DNA from: Chitinophagales bacterium
GTDB taxonomy: Bacteria > Bacteroidota > Bacteroidia > Chitinophagales > CAIOSU01
Direction of reading: 5' to 3'
NCBI GenBank assembly: GCA_026003335.1
Contig: BPHB01000001.1
Coordinates: 1,262,591-1,326,590 of the forward strand
DNA length: 64,000 nt
The translations under genes were made by a program, and so were the position numbers. Below, in pieces: positions 8,093 through 39,235 of the stretch (within the stretch, counting starts at the first letter, position 1; the number at the start of each line of letters is the position of its first letter). Below the pieces are notes generated by a model that worked only from the letters and a program-made list of their open reading frames with translations, did not search any database and was not told the DNA's origin.

Positions 8093-9118
8093 ATGACTGC
8101 CGTTTCCCGAAAAAAAGTGCATTTCACGGTCACCAGGCTCCTGCGCCATTATCTGGCCGAATATGACCGGGAGTCACGGTTGCCTGTAACCTACAATGAT
8201 TTGCTGCGCTACAGCGAAACAATTCCCCACCGCGATAAAAACGGAAATGAAACATTGTGGGAAACAGTGATGTATGACCACGGAATGGCAGCCGAGCTAA
8301 ATGCCGGCCTTGCTATGATCTACTCCATACTCAAAAACGATGGCGACACCTCAGTGCTGGAACACCTCTACGTCTCCCGCATAGATTACTGCACCTTCGG
8401 CAACTCCAATCCGTTTCGCGTACGCATAGTCAACATGTTCAATGATAACTACGACTACTTTTACGTCAAAAAGGCCGATGCCTCCCGGATTTACGGACTG
8501 GAGCTGGAGCATATTCTTTCACCCAACCGCATAAACTATCTGGTGGATAAGGATACGCTGATTGAAGAACACATACCCGGCATTCCCGGAAATGACTTCA
8601 TCCGCCACTACATACATAAAACCGAAGCCAATAAAGTCAGAATTGCCAAAGAGTTTGTCAAATTCAACGAGCGTTGTTTTGTACGCCTGCTGGGCGACAT
8701 GCGATCTTATAACTATGTGGTTGACGTAACTCCGGATTTTGAAGATGAGCAATATCGCATCCGGCCCATTGACTTTGATCAGCAATCATACGAAGGGAAA
8801 AAGACTATGTACCTCCCCCAGTTTTTTAAAGAAAACAACCCTATCGTCAAAATGTGCATGGAGTTGATGACCCCAGAAACTTACCGGCAGTATCAGAATG
8901 AAGAGCGTACCCTGGTTAGCCACCGCATGAAAGCCGAGCGCACACGAATACGAGACCTGCTCAACTGCATGAAAAAGGACACTCTTTCGCGGCCAGAGAA
9001 AATCGCCCAACTTCGCAGTGAACTGGCCAGACACCACAAGGAACCTTCTTTTGAAAAATGCCAGACCATGGGCGAAATTGTGGAGCATCAGCTTAAGGTC
9101 ATGCTTGCCAACCGCTAA
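8093..9118 (+). CDS. uncharacterised protein with kinase-like motifs
   Basis: This 341-residue cytosolic protein has no membrane segment. I do not recognise a named family. The middle reads like a divergent kinase or aminoglycoside-phosphotransferase fold: Y-F-Y-V-K-K-A-D (122-129) as a possible ATP-binding lysine strand, a conserved-looking G-L-E-L-E-H (135-140), then L-L-G-D-M-R-S-Y-N-Y-V-V-D (199-211), which resembles the catalytic loop GDxxxxN, and I-R-P-I-D-F-D-Q (223-230), which resembles the metal-binding IDFD of APH kinases. Order and spacing agree with that fold. The C-terminal 100 residues are helical and basic. The kinase call is inference only. The gene stands alone between the redox pair and the ilv leader. 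Confidence 0.6.
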   Translation: MTAVSRKKVHFTVTRLLRHYLAEYDRESRLPVTYNDLLRYSETIPHRDKNGNETLWETVMYDHGMAAELNAGLAMIYSILKNDGDTSVLEHLYVSRIDYCTFGNSNPFRVRIVNMFNDNYDYFYVKKADASRIYGLELEHILSPNRINYLVDKDTLIEEHIPGIPGNDFIRHYIHKTEANKVRIAKEFVKFNERCFVRLLGDMRSYNYVVDVTPDFEDEQYRIRPIDFDQQSYEGKKTMYLPQFFKENNPIVKMCMELMTPETYRQYQNEERTLVSHRMKAERTRIRDLLNCMKKDTLSRPEKIAQLRSELARHHKEPSFEKCQTMGEIVEHQLKVMLANR

Positions 9119-9165: not shown

Positions 9166-9197
9166 TTGACATTATAGTATTTCTTCCCTTATTTTAC
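9166..9197 (+). promoter_or_regulatory. candidate promoter of the ilv leader
   Basis: TTG at 9166-9168 and TATTTTAC at 9190-9197 are separated by 21 bases, near the Bacteroidota spacing. The -7 box keeps TAnnTT but lacks the final TG. Transcription would begin near 9203, about 17 bases before the leader peptide start. Confidence 0.4.
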
Positions 9198-9219
9198 ACC
9201 CGTTTCAATCAGTACCAGC

Positions 9220-9276
9220 ATGCTTTGTGTGGTTTCCATCATTATTATCGTCATTAGCGGCACACGCTGGCGGTGA
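9220..9276 (+). CDS. ilvL: ilv operon leader peptide (attenuator)
   Basis: An 18-codon open frame, MLCVVSIIIIVISGTRWR. Eight of the nine codons from 4 to 12 are Val or Ile (V V S I I I I V I), and one Leu codon stands at position 2. It ends 25 bases before a strong terminator hairpin and lies upstream of seven genes, six of them for isoleucine/valine synthesis. This is the layout of a classical leader peptide: when Ile-tRNA or Val-tRNA is short of charge the ribosome stalls on codons 4-12. No ATA codon is used. The stop codon (9274-9276) lies inside the antiterminator strand. I call it ilvL by analogy with enteric bacteria; there is no sequence homology. Confidence 0.85.
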   Translation: MLCVVSIIIIVISGTRWR

Positions 9277-9316
9277 GGATGGAATGCCATGAAAATAAAA
9301 GGAGCCGTTCTCACCG
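9247..9316 (+). promoter_or_regulatory. alternative RNA helices of the ilv attenuator
   Basis: Segment 2 (9271-9282, CGGTGAGGATGG) can pair with segment 3 (9305-9316, CCGTTCTCACCG) in 12 consecutive pairs, two of them G-U. This antiterminator would break the terminator stem. Segment 2 can also fold back on leader codons: AGCG 9256-9259 with CGCT 9265-9268, TCA 9251-9253 with TGA 9274-9276, and ATC 9247-9249 with GAT 9278-9280. A stalled ribosome would cover segment 1 and free segment 2 for antitermination. The pairings are seen; the mechanism is inferred from the enteric model. Confidence 0.75.
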
Positions 9317-9330
9317 AGAACGGCTCTTTT
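9302..9330 (+). terminator. rho-independent terminator of the ilv attenuator
   Basis: GAGCCGTTCTC (9302-9312) and GAGAACGGCTC (9316-9326) form a perfect 11-bp stem with a 3-base loop, followed by TTTT and preceded by AAAA. It ends 45 bases before ilvE, so it must be read through for operon expression. Confidence 0.88.
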
Positions 9331-9375: not shown

Positions 9376-10266
9376 ATGTATTTTTCCAACAAGAGCTATG
9401 TTTTCCTTAACGGAGAATTTATCAAAGCTTCCGATGCCAGAATAACCCTGTTTAATCAAACCCTCCACTACGGCAACGGGGTGTTTGAAGGCATCAGAGC
9501 CTATGGCAGCCCTTCAGGCACCACTATTTTTAAGGCCCGTGAACACTATAAACGCCTGAAAGAATCCGCACGCAAAATGCACCTGAAATTTGACTATTCC
9601 ATCAGCGAGCTTATTGACGCCACCTATCAGTTGCTGAAAAAAAATCATCTTGCCGATGCATATATCCGGCCCTTGCTGTTTTCCGGTGTCAACATGCGAC
9701 TGCTACCCAGTGAAGAGTCCAACCTGTTTATTGGCGCATGGAAATGGGAACGCTACCTGGGAGATAAACTTGTCAGCGTTACTATTTCCTCCTATGAACG
9801 CCCTAATCCACACTCCTGCATTGTAGACGCTAAGGTAACAGGCCATTACACCACATCCATTCTGGCTACCTATGAAGCACGTAAGAAAGGCTTTGATGAG
9901 GCTCTGCTCCTGGATATGCATGGCCACGTGGCTGAGGCCCCTGGCTCCAACTTCTTTTATGAGAAAAACGGAGTTTTGTATACTCCACCTCCGGGTCATA
10001 TACTCCCTGGCATCACCCGGGCTACCGTCATGGAAATTGCCAAAGAACTCGGCATTCCGGTCAAGGAAGAACTATTTACCCCGGAACAATTGCATGACGC
10101 AGACTCTGCTTTTTTCACCGGCACAGCAGCAGAAGTGGCAGGAATAAAAAGCATTGACAACCGCAGGTTTCGCAAAAAATGGGAGGATACAGCCGGATAT
10201 ATTTTGTCTCAAAAGTATAAAGAGTATATCCGCACCGGAGATTATTCACACAGCGGCATTATCTGA
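9376..10266 (+). CDS. ilvE: branched-chain amino-acid aminotransferase
   Basis: A 296-residue fold-type IV PLP enzyme that exchanges amino groups between glutamate and the 2-oxo acids of Ile, Val and Leu. Visible motifs: H-Y-G-N-G-V-F-E-G-I-R (31-41), the PLP lysine K153 in D-A-K-V-T-G-H-Y, E-A-P-G-S-N-F-F (187-194) and L-P-G-I-T-R (210-215). Length is normal. D-amino-acid aminotransferase and aminodeoxychorismate lyase share the fold, but the operon setting decides for ilvE. It is the first structural gene after the attenuator and ends exactly where ilvD begins (stop and start adjacent). Confidence 0.93.
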   Translation: MYFSNKSYVFLNGEFIKASDARITLFNQTLHYGNGVFEGIRAYGSPSGTTIFKAREHYKRLKESARKMHLKFDYSISELIDATYQLLKKNHLADAYIRPLLFSGVNMRLLPSEESNLFIGAWKWERYLGDKLVSVTISSYERPNPHSCIVDAKVTGHYTTSILATYEARKKGFDEALLLDMHGHVAEAPGSNFFYEKNGVLYTPPPGHILPGITRATVMEIAKELGIPVKEELFTPEQLHDADSAFFTGTAAEVAGIKSIDNRRFRKKWEDTAGYILSQKYKEYIRTGDYSHSGII

Positions 10267-12009
10267 ATGAAACGTATTAACCGATATAGCCAAACCGTCA
10301 CGCAGGATGAAACACAGCCTGCCGCCCAGGCCATGCTCTATGCTACAGGCTTATCCGAAAAGGATATGCAGAAAGCTCAGGTAGGCATCGTCAGCAATTG
10401 GTTTGAAGGCAACCCCTGCAATATGCATCTGAATGACCTTTCGGATATTGTAAAAAAAGCAGTAACCGAAGCCGGCATGGTAGGCTTGAGATTTAATACC
10501 ATTGGCGTAAGCGATGGCATCTCTATGGGCACTGCCGGAATGCGTTATTCCCTCCCTTCCCGTGAGTTGATAGCCGACTCCATTGAAACCGTTGTCAATG
10601 CACAATGGTATGATGGATTAATAACCATTGCGGGATGTGACAAAAACATGCCGGGAGCCCTCATCGCCATGGCCCGCCTCAACCGGCCTTCCCTGATGGT
10701 TTACGGAGGTACCATAGCATCCGGCCGCTATAATGGCAGAAAACTGGATGTCGTATCGGCCTTTGAAGCTCTGGGAGAAAAATTTGCCGGCAAAATTTCA
10801 GATGCTGACTACAAAAACATTATCAAAAATGCCTGCCCCGGAGCAGGTGCCTGCGGAGGTATGTACACAGCCAATACCATGGCTTCGGCTATAGAGGCTC
10901 TGGGGATGAGCCTGCCCTTCAGTTCATCCAATCCGGCCCGAAGTAAGGAAAAACAGCTTGAATGTGTGGCCGCAGGAAAAGCTATCCGTTTGCTTCTGCA
11001 AAAAAACATACGCCCGTCTGACATCATGACCCGCAAGGCTTTTGAGAATGCAATTACTCTGGTCATGGTATTGGGAGGCTCAACTAATGCAGTCATCCAC
11101 CTTATTGCCATGGCCAAAGCAATAGGAGTTCGGCTCACACTGGACGATTTCCAGAAAATCAGCAATAAAACGCCTTATCTGGCTGACCTCAAGCCCAGCG
11201 GTCAGTACCTGATGGAAGACCTACATGCTGCAGGCGGTGTGCCAGCTGTGATGAAGATGTTGCTGAAAGAAAAAATGCTCCATGGCGATTGCCTCACCGT
11301 TACCGGAAAAACTCTAGCCGAGAACCTCTCCCGCGTAAAACCCCTCGCTGCGGGCCAAAAGATTATACAGCCCCTTAAAAATCCTATCAAAAAGACAGGC
11401 CATATACAAATACTCTACGGCAACCTTGCCCCGCAAGGCGCTGTGGCAAAAATTACCGGCAAGGAGGGGGAAAAATTTGAAGGCCCCGCACGGGTCTATA
11501 ACGATGAATTTTCAGCTATCCGCGGCATTCGCAATGGAAAAGTTAAAAAAGGAGATGTAGTAGTTATCCGTTATGAAGGGCCCCGCGGTGCTCCGGGCAT
11601 GCCCGAAATGCTGAAACCTACTTCTGCCATTATGGGAGCCGGCCTCGGTAAAGAGGTAGCCCTGATAACGGATGGCCGCTTCTCTGGCGGCACACATGGC
11701 TTTGTAGTAGGACATATCACCCCTGAAGCTTATGAGGGCGGCCTTATCGCCTTTATTAAAAATGGCGACCGCATCACCATTGACGCCACCAGAAACAAAA
11801 TTCAGGTGCACCTTTCGGCTGAGGAAATCAAAAAACGCAGGGCCCAGTGGAGCCCCCCGAAAGCAAAAGTTAAAAAGGGGTATCTGCTCAAATACATGCG
11901 TCTGGTGTCCTCCGCATCCCAGGGATGTGTAACAGATGATAACAGCTTTTCACACAATAGCTCAAAAAACCAAAAAACCGTTAAAAAGCAAAACACAAAA
12001 ATCACATGA
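10267..12009 (+). CDS. ilvD: dihydroxy-acid dehydratase
   Basis: A 580-residue IlvD/Edd-family iron-sulfur enzyme that dehydrates dihydroxy acids to the 2-oxo acid precursors of Ile and Val. The cluster cysteines are seen at C51 (G-N-P-C-N-M-H), C124 (A-G-C-D-K-N-M-P-G) and C196 ([10 protein letters not shown]). The C terminus carries a Ser/Asn/Lys-rich tail of about 30 residues that is not part of the fold. The stop codon overlaps the ilvB start (ATGA), so the two are probably translationally coupled. Confidence 0.95.
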
Positions 12010-13748
12010 CTGAAACTTCTACAAAGAAACGTCTGGCTGAGGCATCAGACCCCGTCCGCAATCGCATTATTACGGGCTCAGAAGCCGTCATTCTCTCCTT
12101 GCTGGAGGAGGGAGTGGATACCATCTTTGGCTATCCAGGCGGAGCTATTATGCCTATTTATGATGCCTTATATCACTACAGGCATAAAATCAATCACATT
12201 CTTGTGCGACACGAACAAGGGGCTGCCCATGCTGCCCAAGGCTACGCACGTGTAACCGGCAAACCAGGCGTGTGTTTTGCCACATCCGGGCCGGGAGCAA
12301 CCAACCTCATCACGGGCATTGCCGATGCTCAGATTGATTCTACCCCGATGGTATGCATCACCGGCCAGGTTCCTGTGCATCTGCTCGGAACAGATGCCTT
12401 TCAGGAAACAGATGTTATCGGCATATCTATGCCTGTAACCAAATGGAACTATCGCGTTACCCGACCCGAAGAAATACCCTGGGCTATAGCGCAGGCATTT
12501 TATATCGCCCGCACCGGCCGCCCCGGCCCTGTATTGATTGACATCGCAAAAAATGCCCAGTTCGGCACACTGGAATACTCCTATAAAAAATGCACGGGTA
12601 TCCGCAGCTATCGTCCCTTTCCACAACCCCGTGAAGAAGATATCAAAGCAGCCGCTGACTTAATCAATCGTGCAAAAAGGCCTTACCTCCTTTTCGGTCA
12701 CGGAGTGTTGATAGCAAAAGCAGAAAAAGAATTACAACAACTGATAGAAAAAGCCGGCATTCCTGCCGCTTCTACCTTGCTGGGCTTATCTGCCCTGCCC
12801 TGCGACCATCCGCTGTACGTGGGTTTTCTGGGCATGCACGGCAACTACGGACCCAACATCCTCACCAACAAATGTGACGTGCTGATTGCCGTAGGAATGC
12901 GCTTTGATGACCGCGTAACAGGTGACCTGAAAACCTATGCCAAACAAGCCAAGGTCATACATATTGAAATTGACCCCGCTGAAATTGACAAAAACGTAAA
13001 GACCACCGTTGGCATCCATGCTGACGCCAAAGACGCACTCCATGCCCTGCTGCCGCTGGTGAAAAAAAACCAGCATCCGGAATGGCTCCGGGCATTCAGG
13101 GAATGCGATAAAACAGAATACGAAAAAGTGATCCGGCATGCATGCTTTCCCGAAAAAGGGAAAATACGCATGGCAGAAGTAATACATCAGTTATCCGAAA
13201 AAACCCGTGGTGAGGCTATCATTGTGACTGATGTGGGCCAACACCAGATGATCGCTACGCGGTATTACAAATTCAAAAAACCGCACAGTAATATTTCTTC
13301 AGGCGGTTTAGGCACCATGGGCTTCGCATTGCCCGCAGCTTTGGGAGCCAAAATAGGCCAGCCCCAAAGAGAGGTTATTGCAATCATTGGCGATGGAGGC
13401 TTTCAAATGACCATGCAGGAAATGGCCACTATCTTTCAAACGCAGGCCGCAGTGAAAATCATTATTCTCAACAATGAATTTTTGGGTATGGTACGTCAGT
13501 GGCAGCAATTGTTCTTTGAAAACCGGTATTCCTTTACCGAAATGATAAATCCGGATTTTATTCAGCTTTCAAAAGCATTTGGTATTGAGGCACATTCTAT
13601 CTCCGACAGAAAAGATATCGCCTGGTCACTGGATAAGCTCCTTGACCACAAGGGCCCTTACCTGCTTGAGGTAAAGGTGGAAAAAGAAGAAAATGTGTTT
13701 CCGATGGTGCCCTCGGGTGCCAGTGTTTCCGATGTACGGCTGGAATAA
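12006..13748 (+). CDS. ilvB: acetolactate synthase, large (catalytic) subunit
   Basis: A 580-residue ThDP enzyme that joins pyruvate to pyruvate or 2-oxobutyrate, the first common step of Val and Ile synthesis. The N-terminal domain has F-G-Y-P-G-G-A (41-47) and the catalytic glutamate E70 in V-R-H-E-Q-G-A-A-H. The ThDP motif G-D-G-G-F-Q ... N-N stands near residues 463-495, and Q-W-Q-Q near 500 is usual in anabolic AHAS. An N-terminal extension of about 20 polar residues precedes the fold. The ATGA overlap with ilvD and the small subunit gene 46 bases downstream complete the context. Confidence 0.95.
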
Positions 13749-13794: not shown

Positions 13795-14388
13795 ATGAGC
13801 AACCCAAGTTCCATTTACCACGATCCAACCGATTTTTCCCGTGAGCGGGAGTTTACTATATCCGTATTTACGGAAAACAATATCGGACTGCTCAATCACA
13901 TTACTGTGGTCTTCACGCGAAGAAACCTGAATATCAATAGCCTGACTACCTCCGAATCTGAAATCAAAGGCATTTATCGGTTTACCATCACCATTAAAAC
14001 CACGCGCGACACAGTGGAAAAACTGGTAAAACAGCTGGAAAAAATAGTGGATGTGATAAAAGCCTTTGTTTATGAAGAAAAAGAGGTAATCGCCCAGGAG
14101 ATTGCCTTATATAAGATACCTATTAAAGCGGCACAGAACGGGCTGCATGTTGAACAGATCGTACGAGACAGCAATGCCCGCATCCTTGCCATTGAAGCCG
14201 GTTATATCGTAATTGAAAAAACGGGAACACAAAAGGAAACACAACGGCTTTTTGAAAAGCTTGAACCTCATGGCGTGCTGGAATTTGTCCGCTCAGGCCG
14301 GGTTGCCGTTACCCGCTCCATGCATAATCTGGACGCCTTCCTCAAAGAAATAGAAAAAAACTCTGTCAATCATCAAAAAACAAACTGA
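13795..14388 (+). CDS. ilvN: acetolactate synthase, small (regulatory) subunit
   Basis: A 197-residue subunit with an N-terminal ACT domain: F-T-I-S-V-F-T-E-N-N-I-G-L-L-N-H-I (about 20-36) with the Asn and Gly that bind feedback valine, then the C-terminal domain typical of the longer IlvH-type small subunits. It binds the large subunit, raises activity and gives valine inhibition. The start ATG overlaps the stop of a 9-codon open frame (13769-13798). It ends 6 bases before ilvC. Confidence 0.93.
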   Translation: MSNPSSIYHDPTDFSREREFTISVFTENNIGLLNHITVVFTRRNLNINSLTTSESEIKGIYRFTITIKTTRDTVEKLVKQLEKIVDVIKAFVYEEKEVIAQEIALYKIPIKAAQNGLHVEQIVRDSNARILAIEAGYIVIEKTGTQKETQRLFEKLEPHGVLEFVRSGRVAVTRSMHNLDAFLKEIEKNSVNHQKTN

Positions 14389-14394
14389 ATAATT

Positions 14395-15432
14395 ATGGCA
14401 CAAATTGATTTTGGCGGTGTGATAGAAAACGTGATTACCCGCGATGAATTCCCCATGCAAAAAGCACTGGACATACTGAAAGAGGAAACCCTGGCCGTGT
14501 TAGGCTATGGCGTGCAAGGCCCCGGACAGGCGCTCAACCTGCGAGACAACGGCTTTAACGTAATCGTAGGTCAGCGCAAGGGCACCAAAAGCTGGGACCG
14601 CGCATTGCAAGACGGCTTTACCGAAGGAAAAGACCTCTTTGAACTGGAGGAAGCTGCTCAGCATGGCACCGTATTATTATTTCTGCTTTCTGATGCCGGC
14701 CAGATTGCGTTCTGGCCTACGCTGAAAAAGCATCTCACCAAAGGAAAAACATTGTACTTCTCCCACGGCTTTGGCATTACCTATAACGACCAGACCGGCA
14801 TTGTGCCTCCGGAAGATGTGGACGTGGTGCTCGTAGCCCCAAAAGGCTCCGGCACAAGCCTGCGCAGAAAGTTTCTGCAAGGGAAAGGACTGAACGCCAG
14901 CTATGCAGTTTACCAGGATGCAAGCGGCAAAGCAAAAAATAAAGCACTGGCCCTCGGCATTGGTATCGGCTCAGCATTTCTGTTTGAGACCACTTTCAAA
15001 AAAGAGGTATACAGCGACCTTACCGGTGAACGTGGAACCCTTATGGGTGCCCTGGCCGGTATCTTTGAGGCACAATATAACCTGCTGCGTAAAAAGGGAC
15101 ACCTGCCCAGCGAAGCCTTTAACGAAACAGTGGAGGAGCTTACCGAAAGCCTTATTCTGCTTGTTTCAGAAAATGGCATGGACTGGATGTTTGCTAACTG
15201 CTCCACTACTGCACAACGTGGCGCCCTGGACTGGCGCCACAGGTTCAGAAAAGCCGTAGAACCCGTATTTGAAGAACTCTATGAAAGTGTTGCCTCCGGT
15301 GAACAGGCCCGCATCGTTATTCAGGCCAACAGCGATCCAGACTACCGAAAAAAACTGCAACAGGAATTAAAAGAAATGCGCGATTCGGAAATGTGGAAGG
15401 CGGGTGCACAGGTGCGAAAACTCAGACCCTGA
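14395..15432 (+). CDS. ilvC: ketol-acid reductoisomerase
   Basis: A 345-residue enzyme that isomerises and reduces acetolactate or acetohydroxybutyrate. The Rossmann motif L-G-Y-G-V-Q-G-P-G-Q-A (36-46) is followed by the cofactor loop G-Q-R-K-G-T-K-S-W-D-R-A (59-70); Arg, Lys and Ser there point to NADPH. Metal ligands D208 and E212 stand in D-L-T-G-E-R-G. Length agrees with class I enzymes. The gene has a short spacing to ilvN, and a 70 base gap follows before the small orf. Confidence 0.94.
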   Translation: MAQIDFGGVIENVITRDEFPMQKALDILKEETLAVLGYGVQGPGQALNLRDNGFNVIVGQRKGTKSWDRALQDGFTEGKDLFELEEAAQHGTVLLFLLSDAGQIAFWPTLKKHLTKGKTLYFSHGFGITYNDQTGIVPPEDVDVVLVAPKGSGTSLRRKFLQGKGLNASYAVYQDASGKAKNKALALGIGIGSAFLFETTFKKEVYSDLTGERGTLMGALAGIFEAQYNLLRKKGHLPSEAFNETVEELTESLILLVSENGMDWMFANCSTTAQRGALDWRHRFRKAVEPVFEELYESVASGEQARIVIQANSDPDYRKKLQQELKEMRDSEMWKAGAQVRKLRP

Positions 15433-15809: not shown

Positions 15810-17075
15810 ATGACCACTACAACAAAATCAAAACTCATCCCCGTTGAACACATTCGCAAAGCACAGCAGAAGCTTAAAGGTGTAGTAACGCGCACTCCGC
15901 TGACCCACAGCCCCAATCTCTCGCGCGAATTCGGGTGCAATATTTATCTGAAACGCGAAGATCTGCAGGTGGTGCGCTCGTACAAACTGCGCGGAGCCTA
16001 TAACAAAATTTCTTCCATTCTTAAAGACAAAGCCGAAAAAGGTATCGTAGCCGCCAGCGCGGGCAACCACGCACAGGGGGTTGCTTACTCATGTCACGCC
16101 TTAGGTATTCATGGTAAAATTTATATGCCCAATCCCACCACCCGCCAAAAAATTGACAAGGTGAAAATGTTCGGACGTGAATACGTGGAAATCGTTCTTA
16201 CAGGCGATACTTACGATGATGCGTACCGTGTGGCCATGGAAGAATGCAGGAAGCACGACAAGGTGTTTATTCATCCTTTTGAAGACGAAAAGGTGATTGA
16301 GGGACAAGGTACAGTGGGCCTGGAAATACTGGAAGACATGGACGAACCCATAGACTTCCTTTTTCTGCCCATAGGCGGAGGCGGTCTCGCTTCCGGTGTG
16401 GGCAGCGTGTTCAAACAGCTCAGCCCTGCAACAAAAGTTATTGGTGTGGAACCTGAAGGAGCCCCCGCCATGAAAGAGTCGCTGCGCCAGGGCAAAGTGG
16501 TTACCCTTGATGAGATTGACAATTTCGTGGATGGCGCAGCCGTAAAACAGGTAGGTGAGCTTACTTTTTCCGTATGCCGTGAAGCACTGGATGATATGAC
16601 ACTTGTGCCTGAAGGAAAGATTTGCACGATAATCCTTCGCCTTTACAACGAAGAGGGCATGGTCGTTGAGCCTGCGGGAGCATTGACCATCAGCGCTCTG
16701 GATTTCCATCGTAACCAGATAGAAGGGAAAAATGTCGTATGTCTGGTAAGTGGCGGTAACAATGACATCATGCGTACGGCTGAAATCAAAGAACGCTCGC
16801 TGCTCTATGAAGGACTAAAACACTATTTTATCATTCGCTTTCCGCAACGCGCTGGCGCCCTGCGCGAGTTTTTGAATGATGTGCTCGGCCCCACCGATGA
16901 CATCTGCCACTTTGAGTACACCAAGAAAAACAGCCGCGAAAGCGGACCAGCACTTATCGGAATTGAATTAGTAAAAAAAGAAGACTACCACGGGTTGATT
17001 CAAAGAATGAAAAAATTTCACATCAACTACGAGGAAGTTAATAACAACCCGAACCTGTTTAATTATTTCATATAG
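15810..17075 (+). CDS. ilvA: threonine dehydratase (threonine ammonia-lyase)
   Basis: A 421-residue PLP enzyme that converts threonine to 2-oxobutyrate, the committed step to isoleucine. The PLP lysine is K59 in R-S-Y-K-L-R-G-A. A-S-A-G-N-H-A-Q-G-V-A (about 86-96) and the glycine loop G-G-G-G-L-A-S-G bind the cofactor phosphate. The C-terminal part (about 335-421) is a single ACT-like regulatory domain, as in enzymes of this length, so feedback control by isoleucine is expected. Last gene of the ilv operon. Confidence 0.94.
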   Translation: MTTTTKSKLIPVEHIRKAQQKLKGVVTRTPLTHSPNLSREFGCNIYLKREDLQVVRSYKLRGAYNKISSILKDKAEKGIVAASAGNHAQGVAYSCHALGIHGKIYMPNPTTRQKIDKVKMFGREYVEIVLTGDTYDDAYRVAMEECRKHDKVFIHPFEDEKVIEGQGTVGLEILEDMDEPIDFLFLPIGGGGLASGVGSVFKQLSPATKVIGVEPEGAPAMKESLRQGKVVTLDEIDNFVDGAAVKQVGELTFSVCREALDDMTLVPEGKICTIILRLYNEEGMVVEPAGALTISALDFHRNQIEGKNVVCLVSGGNNDIMRTAEIKERSLLYEGLKHYFIIRFPQRAGALREFLNDVLGPTDDICHFEYTKKNSRESGPALIGIELVKKEDYHGLIQRMKKFHINYEEVNNNPNLFNYFI

Positions 17076-37759: not shown

Positions 37760-37784
37760 CGCCCGGTTCTTTACAAACATGCTG

Positions 37785-37894
37785 CTTATCCAGAAAGGTG
37801 GAGGGAAAGGCCCTTCGAAACCTTAGCAACCGGTTTCGGTTAGTTCCGAAGCTATGGTGCTAATTCCTGTCCGACATATTCGGATAAAGATAAG
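37785..37894 (+). ncRNA. SAM-I (S-box) riboswitch
   Basis: P1 is formed by CTTATC (37785-37790) and GATAAG (37889-37894). Between them are the class landmarks: AAAGGTGGAGGGAAAGGCCC with the kink-turn GGTGG/GAGGGA, the core G-A-A-A-C-C-T-T-A-G-C-A-A-C-C, a P3 hairpin (GGTTTCGG/CCGAAGC), then A-T-G-G-T-G-C-T-A-A-T-T-C-C-T-G, and a P4 hairpin TCCGA/TTCGGA. It binds S-adenosylmethionine. It lies 162 bases before a cystathionine gamma-synthase-like gene, a standard target. Confidence 0.94.
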
Positions 37895-37930
37895 TTAGTG
37901 AGAATGTCAGTGAAGCCTCGGGCTGCAATG

Positions 37931-38056: not shown

Positions 38057-39235
38057 ATGAAGGAAGAAACACAGATTTTGCAGTCCATAGCAGTTGATCC
38101 ACACACCGGAGCAGTATCAACGCCTATTTATCAGACCGCCACCTTTGTACATGAACAGCCCGGAGTGACGAAAGGCTTTGACTACTCCCGCACCAATAAT
38201 CCCACACGCCAGGTTCTTGAAAAATTACTTGCCACACTAGAAGGGGGCTATGCAGGATTTGCCTTTTCCAGCGGTGTAGCTGCCATTGATGCAGTTGTGA
38301 AACTGCTGAAGGCGGGCGATGAAATTGTAGCTGTGGATGATATCTATGGCGGCACTTTCCGCCTTTTTGAGAAAATATACAGCCGCTTCGGCATTCAGGT
38401 GCGTTATACCGATACCACCTGCCTGGAGAACGTACAGGATGCATTCACCGACAAAACCAGGATGGTGTGGCTGGAAACCCCCACCAATCCCAACCTGCGT
38501 ATCTCCGACATTCAGGCTATCGCACGCCTGGCCCATCAACGGCAAGCTTTACTGACAGTAGATAATACTTTTGCCTCCCCCGTGGTGCAAAAGCCGCTGC
38601 ATTGGGGCGCAGATATCGTAGTGCACAGCGCAACAAAATATCTTGCAGGCCACTGTGACGTCATTGCCGGAGCTGTAATAGTGAAAAGCCCGGAGCTGGC
38701 CGATGAAATAAAATTTATCCAGAATGCCAGTGGAGCTATCCTGGGCCCCTTTGACTCCTGGCTAACTATACGGGGTATTGAGACCCTCGCCCTGCGTCTG
38801 GAACGCAGCAGCACCAACGCACTCCGGATCGCACATTTTCTGGAAAATCATCCCGCTGTAGAACAGGTCAACTATCCCGGCCTGCCATCTCATCCGCAGC
38901 ATGAGCTGGCAGCACGACAACAACGCCTGTTCGGGGGAGTTATCTCATTCACACTGAAAAGCCAAAAGAAGGATGAAGCAACTCGTTTTGTTTCTTCCAC
39001 TACCCTGTTTAATCTGACCGATAGCATAGGAGGGGTAAAAAGCTCAATCAGTCATCCGGTTTCCATGTCACACAAAGCGATGGATCCTGAGGCCCGGAAA
39101 AAAGCCGGCATCACCGATACCCTTATCCGTATCTCTGTAGGCATTGAATATGCAGATGATCTCATTGAGGACCTGGAACGCTCCCTCAACAAACTCCGCC
39201 ATATATCAAAAACACAGCAACTTATTACTCCATGA
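38057..39235 (+). CDS. cystathionine gamma-synthase-like PLP enzyme
   Basis: A 392-residue Cys/Met-metabolism PLP enzyme. The PLP lysine is K194 in H-S-A-T-K-Y-L-A-G-H, and S-S-G-V-A-A-I-D-A (71-79) and E-T-P-T-N-P (140-145) are family motifs. Gamma-synthase, beta-lyase and O-acetylhomoserine sulfhydrylase cannot be separated by eye; the length and Y-S-R-T-N-N-P-T-R (43-51) favour gamma-synthase or lyase (metB/metC). The SAM-I riboswitch and hom downstream (ATGA overlap) put it in methionine synthesis. Confidence 0.85.
   Translation: MKEETQILQSIAVDPHTGAVSTPIYQTATFVHEQPGVTKGFDYSRTNNPTRQVLEKLLATLEGGYAGFAFSSGVAAIDAVVKLLKAGDEIVAVDDIYGGTFRLFEKIYSRFGIQVRYTDTTCLENVQDAFTDKTRMVWLETPTNPNLRISDIQAIARLAHQRQALLTVDNTFASPVVQKPLHWGADIVVHSATKYLAGHCDVIAGAVIVKSPELADEIKFIQNASGAILGPFDSWLTIRGIETLALRLERSSTNALRIAHFLENHPAVEQVNYPGLPSHPQHELAARQQRLFGGVISFTLKSQKKDEATRFVSSTTLFNLTDSIGGVKSSISHPVSMSHKAMDPEARKKAGITDTLIRISVGIEYADDLIEDLERSLNKLRHISKTQQLITP

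Follow-up and report, generated by a model that had tools for sequence, protein, structure and literature searches.

The ilv operon of the 64-kb stretch of DNA analyzed here (referred to as the window) is very probably controlled by a ribosome-mediated transcription attenuator upstream of ilvE, as predicted from the sequence, RNA folds, and comparison with relatives. A preliminary description of this DNA had proposed such an attenuator with an Ile/Val leader peptide, and this proposal was supported by a predicted antiterminator together with the modules, pairing, and codon content found in relatives. Several features by which attenuators are recognized were detected or predicted: a cluster of cognate codons, a terminator before the first gene, a mutually exclusive antiterminator within reach of the ribosome, and codons matched to the pathway. 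The leader, control codons, terminator, antiterminator, maintained pairing, and match between codons and pathway are supported by sequence, prediction, and comparison. This kind of attenuator is already known and has been suggested in the phylum (Bacteroidota); the window adds a well-defined predicted antiterminator arm over the stop codon, and most of the interest lies in the wider pattern, namely the codon code, tandem modules, and spread across the phylum.

Leader, terminator, and predicted antiterminator upstream of ilvE

The operon, on the + strand, consists of ilvE (branched-chain transaminase; 9376-10266), ilvD (dihydroxy-acid dehydratase; 10267-12009), ilvB (acetolactate synthase large subunit; 12006-13748), ilvN (acetolactate synthase small subunit; 13795-14388), ilvC (ketol-acid reductoisomerase; 14395-15432), and ilvA (threonine deaminase; 15810-17075). 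IlvE, IlvD, IlvB, IlvC, and IlvA scored over the cut-offs of TIGR01122, TIGR00110, TIGR00118, TIGR00465, and TIGR02079, respectively, and IlvN (NF008864; 113.7 bits) just under its cut-off of 119. Co-transcription of ilvA with ilvE-D-B-N-C is less sure because a 377-base gap precedes ilvA. The preceding ORF ends at 9118 and ilvE starts at 9376, confirming the gap of 257 bases described previously. This gap contains a leader ORF of 18 codons (MLCVVSIIIIVISGTRWR; 9220-9276, + strand), with ATG at 9220 and the stop codon TGA at 9274-9276, and leaders of the same type were found upstream of ilvE or ilvD in relatives. Direct reading of the sequence bore out the eight Ile/Val residues reported for codons 4-12 (region 1; 9229-9255, + strand), which encode Val-Val-Ser-Ile-Ile-Ile-Ile-Val-Ile: eight of nine residues are Ile or Val and one is Ser. 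The sole Leu of the leader is at codon 2, and none occurs within the control run.

On the other hand, 9166, the start position given previously, was rejected as the start of the ORF: a promoter-like hexamer, TTGACA, is located there. With TATTTT after 18 nt, this hexamer formed a weak promoter-like site in a consensus scan (9166-9195, + strand), and the leader transcript possibly starts near 9200; the 2-kb region contained two such sites, and 2.5 would be expected by chance. A strict Bacteroidota-type promoter pattern was enriched before leaders (6 of 70, versus 21 of 1,400 shuffles), absent from most of them, and not found before the window's own leader.

The leader stop codon and ilvE are 99 nt apart, and between them sequence and fold indicated an intrinsic terminator hairpin (regions 3 and 4; 9302-9326, + strand) followed by the tail TTTTCATTT. 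The stem consists of 11 perfect pairs (9302-9312 with 9316-9326) closing a 3-nt loop; the perfect 11-bp hairpin originally described was thus recovered, with a short tail and a modest T tract. An antiterminator switch is an addition to that description, which contained the leader and terminator only. When the RNA was folded through 9318 (without region 4), a 12-pair helix was predicted between region 2 (5' arm, CGGTGAGGATGG; 9271-9282, + strand), which holds the leader stop codon, and region 3 (3' arm, CCGTTCTCACCG; 9305-9316, + strand), which overlaps the 5' arm and loop of the terminator. When region 4 was included, the predicted fold was the terminator, at the expense of the antiterminator; the two helices use common bases and are predicted to be mutually exclusive. 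In a shuffle test, none of 200 shuffles matched the strength of the 2:3 pairing at this locus. A possible partner of the control codons (9278-9290, + strand), forming a 1:2 protector helix with 9229-9240, was also seen in the fold of 9220-9300 (z -1.7, P 0.065).

When the 257-base gap was shuffled 5,000 times with dinucleotides preserved, 37 shuffles had an ORF with at least 8/10 I/L/V and 344 had one with at least 7/10, accompanied by a terminator in eight. Because these eight shuffles reproduced the module, the single locus is unusual (P about 0.002) yet not extreme, and what settles the case for the predicted attenuator is the comparative evidence from relatives.

Modules and pairing in relatives

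Three overlapping samples (60, 149, and 198 genomes), 13 loci found through ilvE, and further stretches supplied the upstream regions of ilvE- or ilvD-led operons. Loci were retained when the IlvD match started within its first 30 residues and at least 150 nt preceded the first gene; those failing (e.g., ilvE alone) were dropped before counting, and the 166 that passed gave 131 distinct regions, including the window's own. The module, defined as an ORF of 8-60 codons with at least 7/10 I/L/V followed by a terminator, was detected in 70 of the 131 regions, versus 1 of 131 reverse strands and 1 of 655 shuffles; the search of relatives for an Ile/Val-rich frame before a terminator, as proposed in the preliminary description, was therefore positive. 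A stricter threshold (8/10) gave 57 regions, one reverse strand, and no shuffles, and a looser one (6/10) gave 77 regions, two reverse strands, and six shuffles. In the whole window, the detector gave two hits, one at the leader and the other near 2741 on the minus strand, where a 47-codon frame containing LLLIILL is accompanied by a -12.4 kcal/mol hairpin; the latter hit is probably due to chance.

Counted per genome, the module was present in 65 of 122 across 15 of 24 families (the ilvD genomes G012, G033, and G111 are outside this count), and named carriers include Fulvivirga imtechensis and Cyclobacteriaceae MAGs. No module was found in 57 of the 122 ilvD genomes assessed, and the families without one were f19 (0/11), f32 (0/5), f31 (0/4), f37 (0/3), f49 (0/2), and f38, f40, f45, and f56 (0/1 each). 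Neither leader nor hairpin was found at the loci of Hymenobacter rigui, H. piscis, and Solitalea longa, and Hymenobacter sp. 15J16-1T3B had the hairpin only. Some absences may be undercounts, since three loci (L086, L127, and L136) have a terminator and no passing frame. Genomes without ilvD above the cut-offs (93 of 149 and 118 of 198 in two samples) are uninformative on the module. Since neither ilvD above the cut-off nor a close ilvE was found in the six sampled family relatives (G001-G006), the nearest relatives of the window genome (G000), which has the whole operon, are outside the comparison. In the IlvD tree, G000 was placed beside G209, a genome from another class (support 91, long branch); this grouping hints at transfer and is no proof of it, and possible explanations are a transfer of the ilv operon with its switch or a loss in the family relatives.

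Differences between 19 pairs of related leaders numbered 100, 80, and 128 at codon positions 1, 2, and 3, respectively (P 0.003), with 56 synonymous versus 139 non-synonymous codon changes, a modest result in a test of coding constraint. In the window genome, the 450 nt preceding hisG, two aspartokinase genes, trpE, and a second PF04715 gene showed no run of cognate codons; this is a weak negative, since these genes are perhaps not the first of their operons. The frame MPVWICTPLRAGIIHTTIG before hisG, with a single His and apparently inside the preceding gene, was rejected.

The antiterminator pairing was assessed in the 78 modules of the 131 regions by comparing the stretch from the last control codon to the hairpin against the 5' arm and loop of the hairpin, using 200 shuffles of that stretch. 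The mean z of the 2:3 pairing was -3.1, with P≤0.05 in 64 of 78 modules, and that of the control pairing (2:4; the same stretch against the 3' arm) was -0.2, with 8 of 78. Since the arms have many different sequences, the pairing has been kept while the letters changed. When region 2 was swapped among loci, the own pairing ranked in the best 5% for only 35 of 78, perhaps because relatives share sequences. Overlap between the arm and the leader stop codon was scored, by the rule of the script, in 41 of 78 modules; the arms of the remaining 37 either end 0-10 nt short of the stop codon or start no more than about 7 nt from its first base. The 1:2 pairing (the stretch against the control codons) gave a mean z of -1.2 and reached P≤0.05 in only 24 of 78, and a general 1:2 protector helix was rejected as a family feature on this basis. 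From these predictions, we conclude that 2:3 versus 3:4 pairing would be the conserved core, with the ribosome rather than a 1:2 helix as the usual protector.

In 8 of 122 genomes from four families (f8, f12, f25, and f35; loci L046, L049, L070, L090, L095, L099, L110, and L133), the operon is preceded by two complete leader-antiterminator-terminator modules in series; the window locus has a single module. The 2:3 pairing reached P≤0.05 in 15 of the 16 tandem halves (P 0.065 in the remaining one). In all eight tandems, the two halves aligned better than 200 of 200 shuffles, most strongly in L046 (71% over 149 positions), which suggests that at least some arose by duplication; shared composition and function could contribute. 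Tandems occurred in 6 of 11 leuA-less genomes versus 2 of 54 others (Fisher P 1e-4), four of the six being from one family. The region before ilvE in L133, which has tandem leaders, showed a sub-threshold Phe_leader match (472-580, + strand; 41.9 versus 55 bits), probably a similarity in shape only.

Leader codons and the leucine pathway

The Leu share (Leu among I+V+L in the control run) was estimated for 49 module loci with at least 8 kb downstream, with query identities checked. In seven loci with leuA, leuC, or leuD downstream, it was 0.44-0.70 (mean 0.55), and in the 42 loci without downstream leu genes, the mean was 0.14 (P 5e-5, kinship ignored). Exceptions were L166, L178, L190, and L194, with shares of at least 0.44 and no downstream leu genes (leuA is elsewhere in their genomes). 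In L168, L169, L172, and L187, leuA or leuD lies before the leader on the same strand, and Leu shares were low. Among the module-bearing genomes, 11 of 65 had no leuA match at 1e-100, and their mean Leu share was 0.025, versus 0.20 in the 54 others (P 0.002, kinship ignored); five of the 11 (G027, G091, G115, G121, and G141) are less than 90% complete. These rows are not independent, since three families account for the seven leu operons and five for the 11 leuA-less genomes. These comparisons indicate that leader codon content follows the regulated pathway.

The window genome, rated 100% complete, had no leuA match even at 0.001, and its sole leuC match, which fell below the cut-off, lies in a frame of 763 codons, the length of an aconitase. 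The Leu share of its leader was 0.11, from the Leu of codon 2, and codons 4-12 give none. The earlier view that leucine is not the main signal fits with this genome and with the way in which Leu share tracks leu genes. Leader composition that follows the operon product could aid annotation and point to auxotrophy, as in the window genome without leuA.

Leu-rich leaders before leu-containing operons were observed in L118 (e.g., MLNLLLLNILPGKK), L124, L158-L161, and L197; four of the seven Leu-rich leaders (L158, L118, L124, and L083, which is the same as L197) missed P≤0.05 in the pairing test. In four loci (L118, L124, L132, and L133), the ilvC-like frame is 493 codons long (522 in L133) and only 28-30% identical to the 345-aa IlvC of the window; two reductoisomerase types seem to alternate at one operon position.

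Proposed mechanism, alternatives, and known systems

We infer that a promoter, ribosome stalling, termination, and coupling between the ribosome and RNA polymerase operate at the window locus. RNA polymerase would start upstream of 9220, followed by a ribosome translating the leader. The last Ile control codon is 15 nt from the region 2 arm, and the stop codon is within the arm; a ribosome at the stop codon should therefore cover the arm and a stalled one leave it free, as expected from ribosome footprints in general. When Ile-tRNA and Val-tRNA are charged, the ribosome would reach the stop codon and cover region 2, so that the terminator could form and transcription would stop near 9330. When Ile or Val is short, the ribosome would stall in codons 4-12, leaving 15 nt or more before region 2, which would then pair with region 3; this pairing would pre-empt the terminator, and ilvE-D-B-N-C (and possibly ilvA) would be transcribed.

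We rather favor the reading that, across Bacteroidota, this is a three-element attenuator with the ribosome as protector, an arm at the stop codon, and a leader written in a branched-chain code, doubled in some lineages. Within this joint reading, the doubling, mostly in leuA-less genomes, would sharpen the response. If true, the three-element reading implies working ribosome-polymerase coupling in Bacteroidota, and a conserved example makes it testable whether the ribosome trails RNA polymerase closely enough to control termination. To our knowledge, Bacteroidota are generally said not to use Shine-Dalgarno initiation. Tandem forms also offer a natural comparison between one attenuator and two in series.

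Attenuation by leader peptides is textbook knowledge in enterics, where it is best known (ilvGMEDA, ilvBN, leu, and thr leaders). The window locus is like these enterobacterial systems in having a short ORF with runs of cognate codons, a terminator, an exclusive antiterminator, and a biosynthetic operon. Unlike enteric leaders, its control run contains only Ile/Val and one Ser, region 2 holds the stop codon, the family as a whole shows a weak 1:2 protector helix, and no Rfam match was found (enteric sequences were compared through Rfam only). Vitreschak et al. reportedly predicted some attenuators in Bacteroidetes in 2004. In the open-licence PMC literature, neither ilv leader attenuation in Bacteroidota nor tandem amino-acid leader attenuators were found among the matches listed, and the phylum-wide spread and the stop-codon-embedded antiterminator arm were not found in the literature searched.

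The ilvBNC attenuator of Corynebacterium is described as combining RNA structures with a leader ORF, or upstream ORF, ahead of the ilv genes (PMC11857589, PMC10272879); it belongs to a different phylum with a three-hairpin model, and the likeness, judged from descriptions, is in layout. In the same phylum as the window, strong clues for the same kind of regulation, leader-peptide attenuation upstream of amino-acid biosynthesis operons, came from the transcriptome and structures of Flavobacterium psychrophilum (PMC9723704), the main text of which does not contain the word ilv; the supplementary list may well include ilv. Short ORFs in 5' UTRs of B. thetaiotaomicron were described as reminiscent of leader peptides (PMC7366714). 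For leader-peptide attenuation in Bacteroidota, the accessible portions of the open-licence PMC literature searched contained suggestions, and no experimental test was found there. Tandem attenuators with two short ORFs in one leader are described for Salmonella mgtCBR (PMC3641672), a Mg2+/virulence operon; the tandems of the relatives (not of the window) carry Ile/Val codons in both leaders and precede a biosynthetic operon.

Several other explanations were weighed against the attenuator. The Ile/Val frame could be an ORF that arose by chance in AT-rich DNA, and the hairpin an ordinary terminator or insulator, consistent with the ORF of at least 8/10 I/L/V arising alone in 37 of 5,000 gap shuffles and with the 57 of 122 genomes lacking the module; set against 70 of 131 regions versus 1 of 655 shuffles, a maintained 2:3 pairing, and codon content that follows the pathway, this is highly improbable. 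Since leader peptides can also act on translation, the leader might instead function post-transcriptionally, through translational attenuation, reinitiation, or effects on mRNA stability at ilvE; this is very unlikely, considering that in 70 regions the leader is followed by a hairpin with a T-rich tail and that, in the window, the hairpin intervenes in the 99 nt between the leader stop codon and ilvE.

Control by a tRNA- or metabolite-binding RNA (T-box or other riboswitch), with an incidental ORF, is scarcely credible. RNAs of this type are known regulators of amino-acid genes in other phyla; at the window leader, however, no Rfam family reached the gathering score, the leader region spans only some 150 nt, and the codons differ according to the pathway. 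Membership in the T-box family was rejected because its Rfam model had no match at gathering in the window, and membership in the Rfam amino-acid leaders (Leu, Thr, Phe, and others) was rejected on the same ground. When eight loci were compared with Rfam at E≤1, seven matches, each below gathering, were obtained (e.g., the Phe_leader in L133). The window's only match to a regulatory RNA was a SAM riboswitch (RF00162, 82.7 bits; 37783-37896, + strand), followed by a frame with ATG at 38057 that, by eye, resembles an enzyme of the methionine/cysteine pathway.
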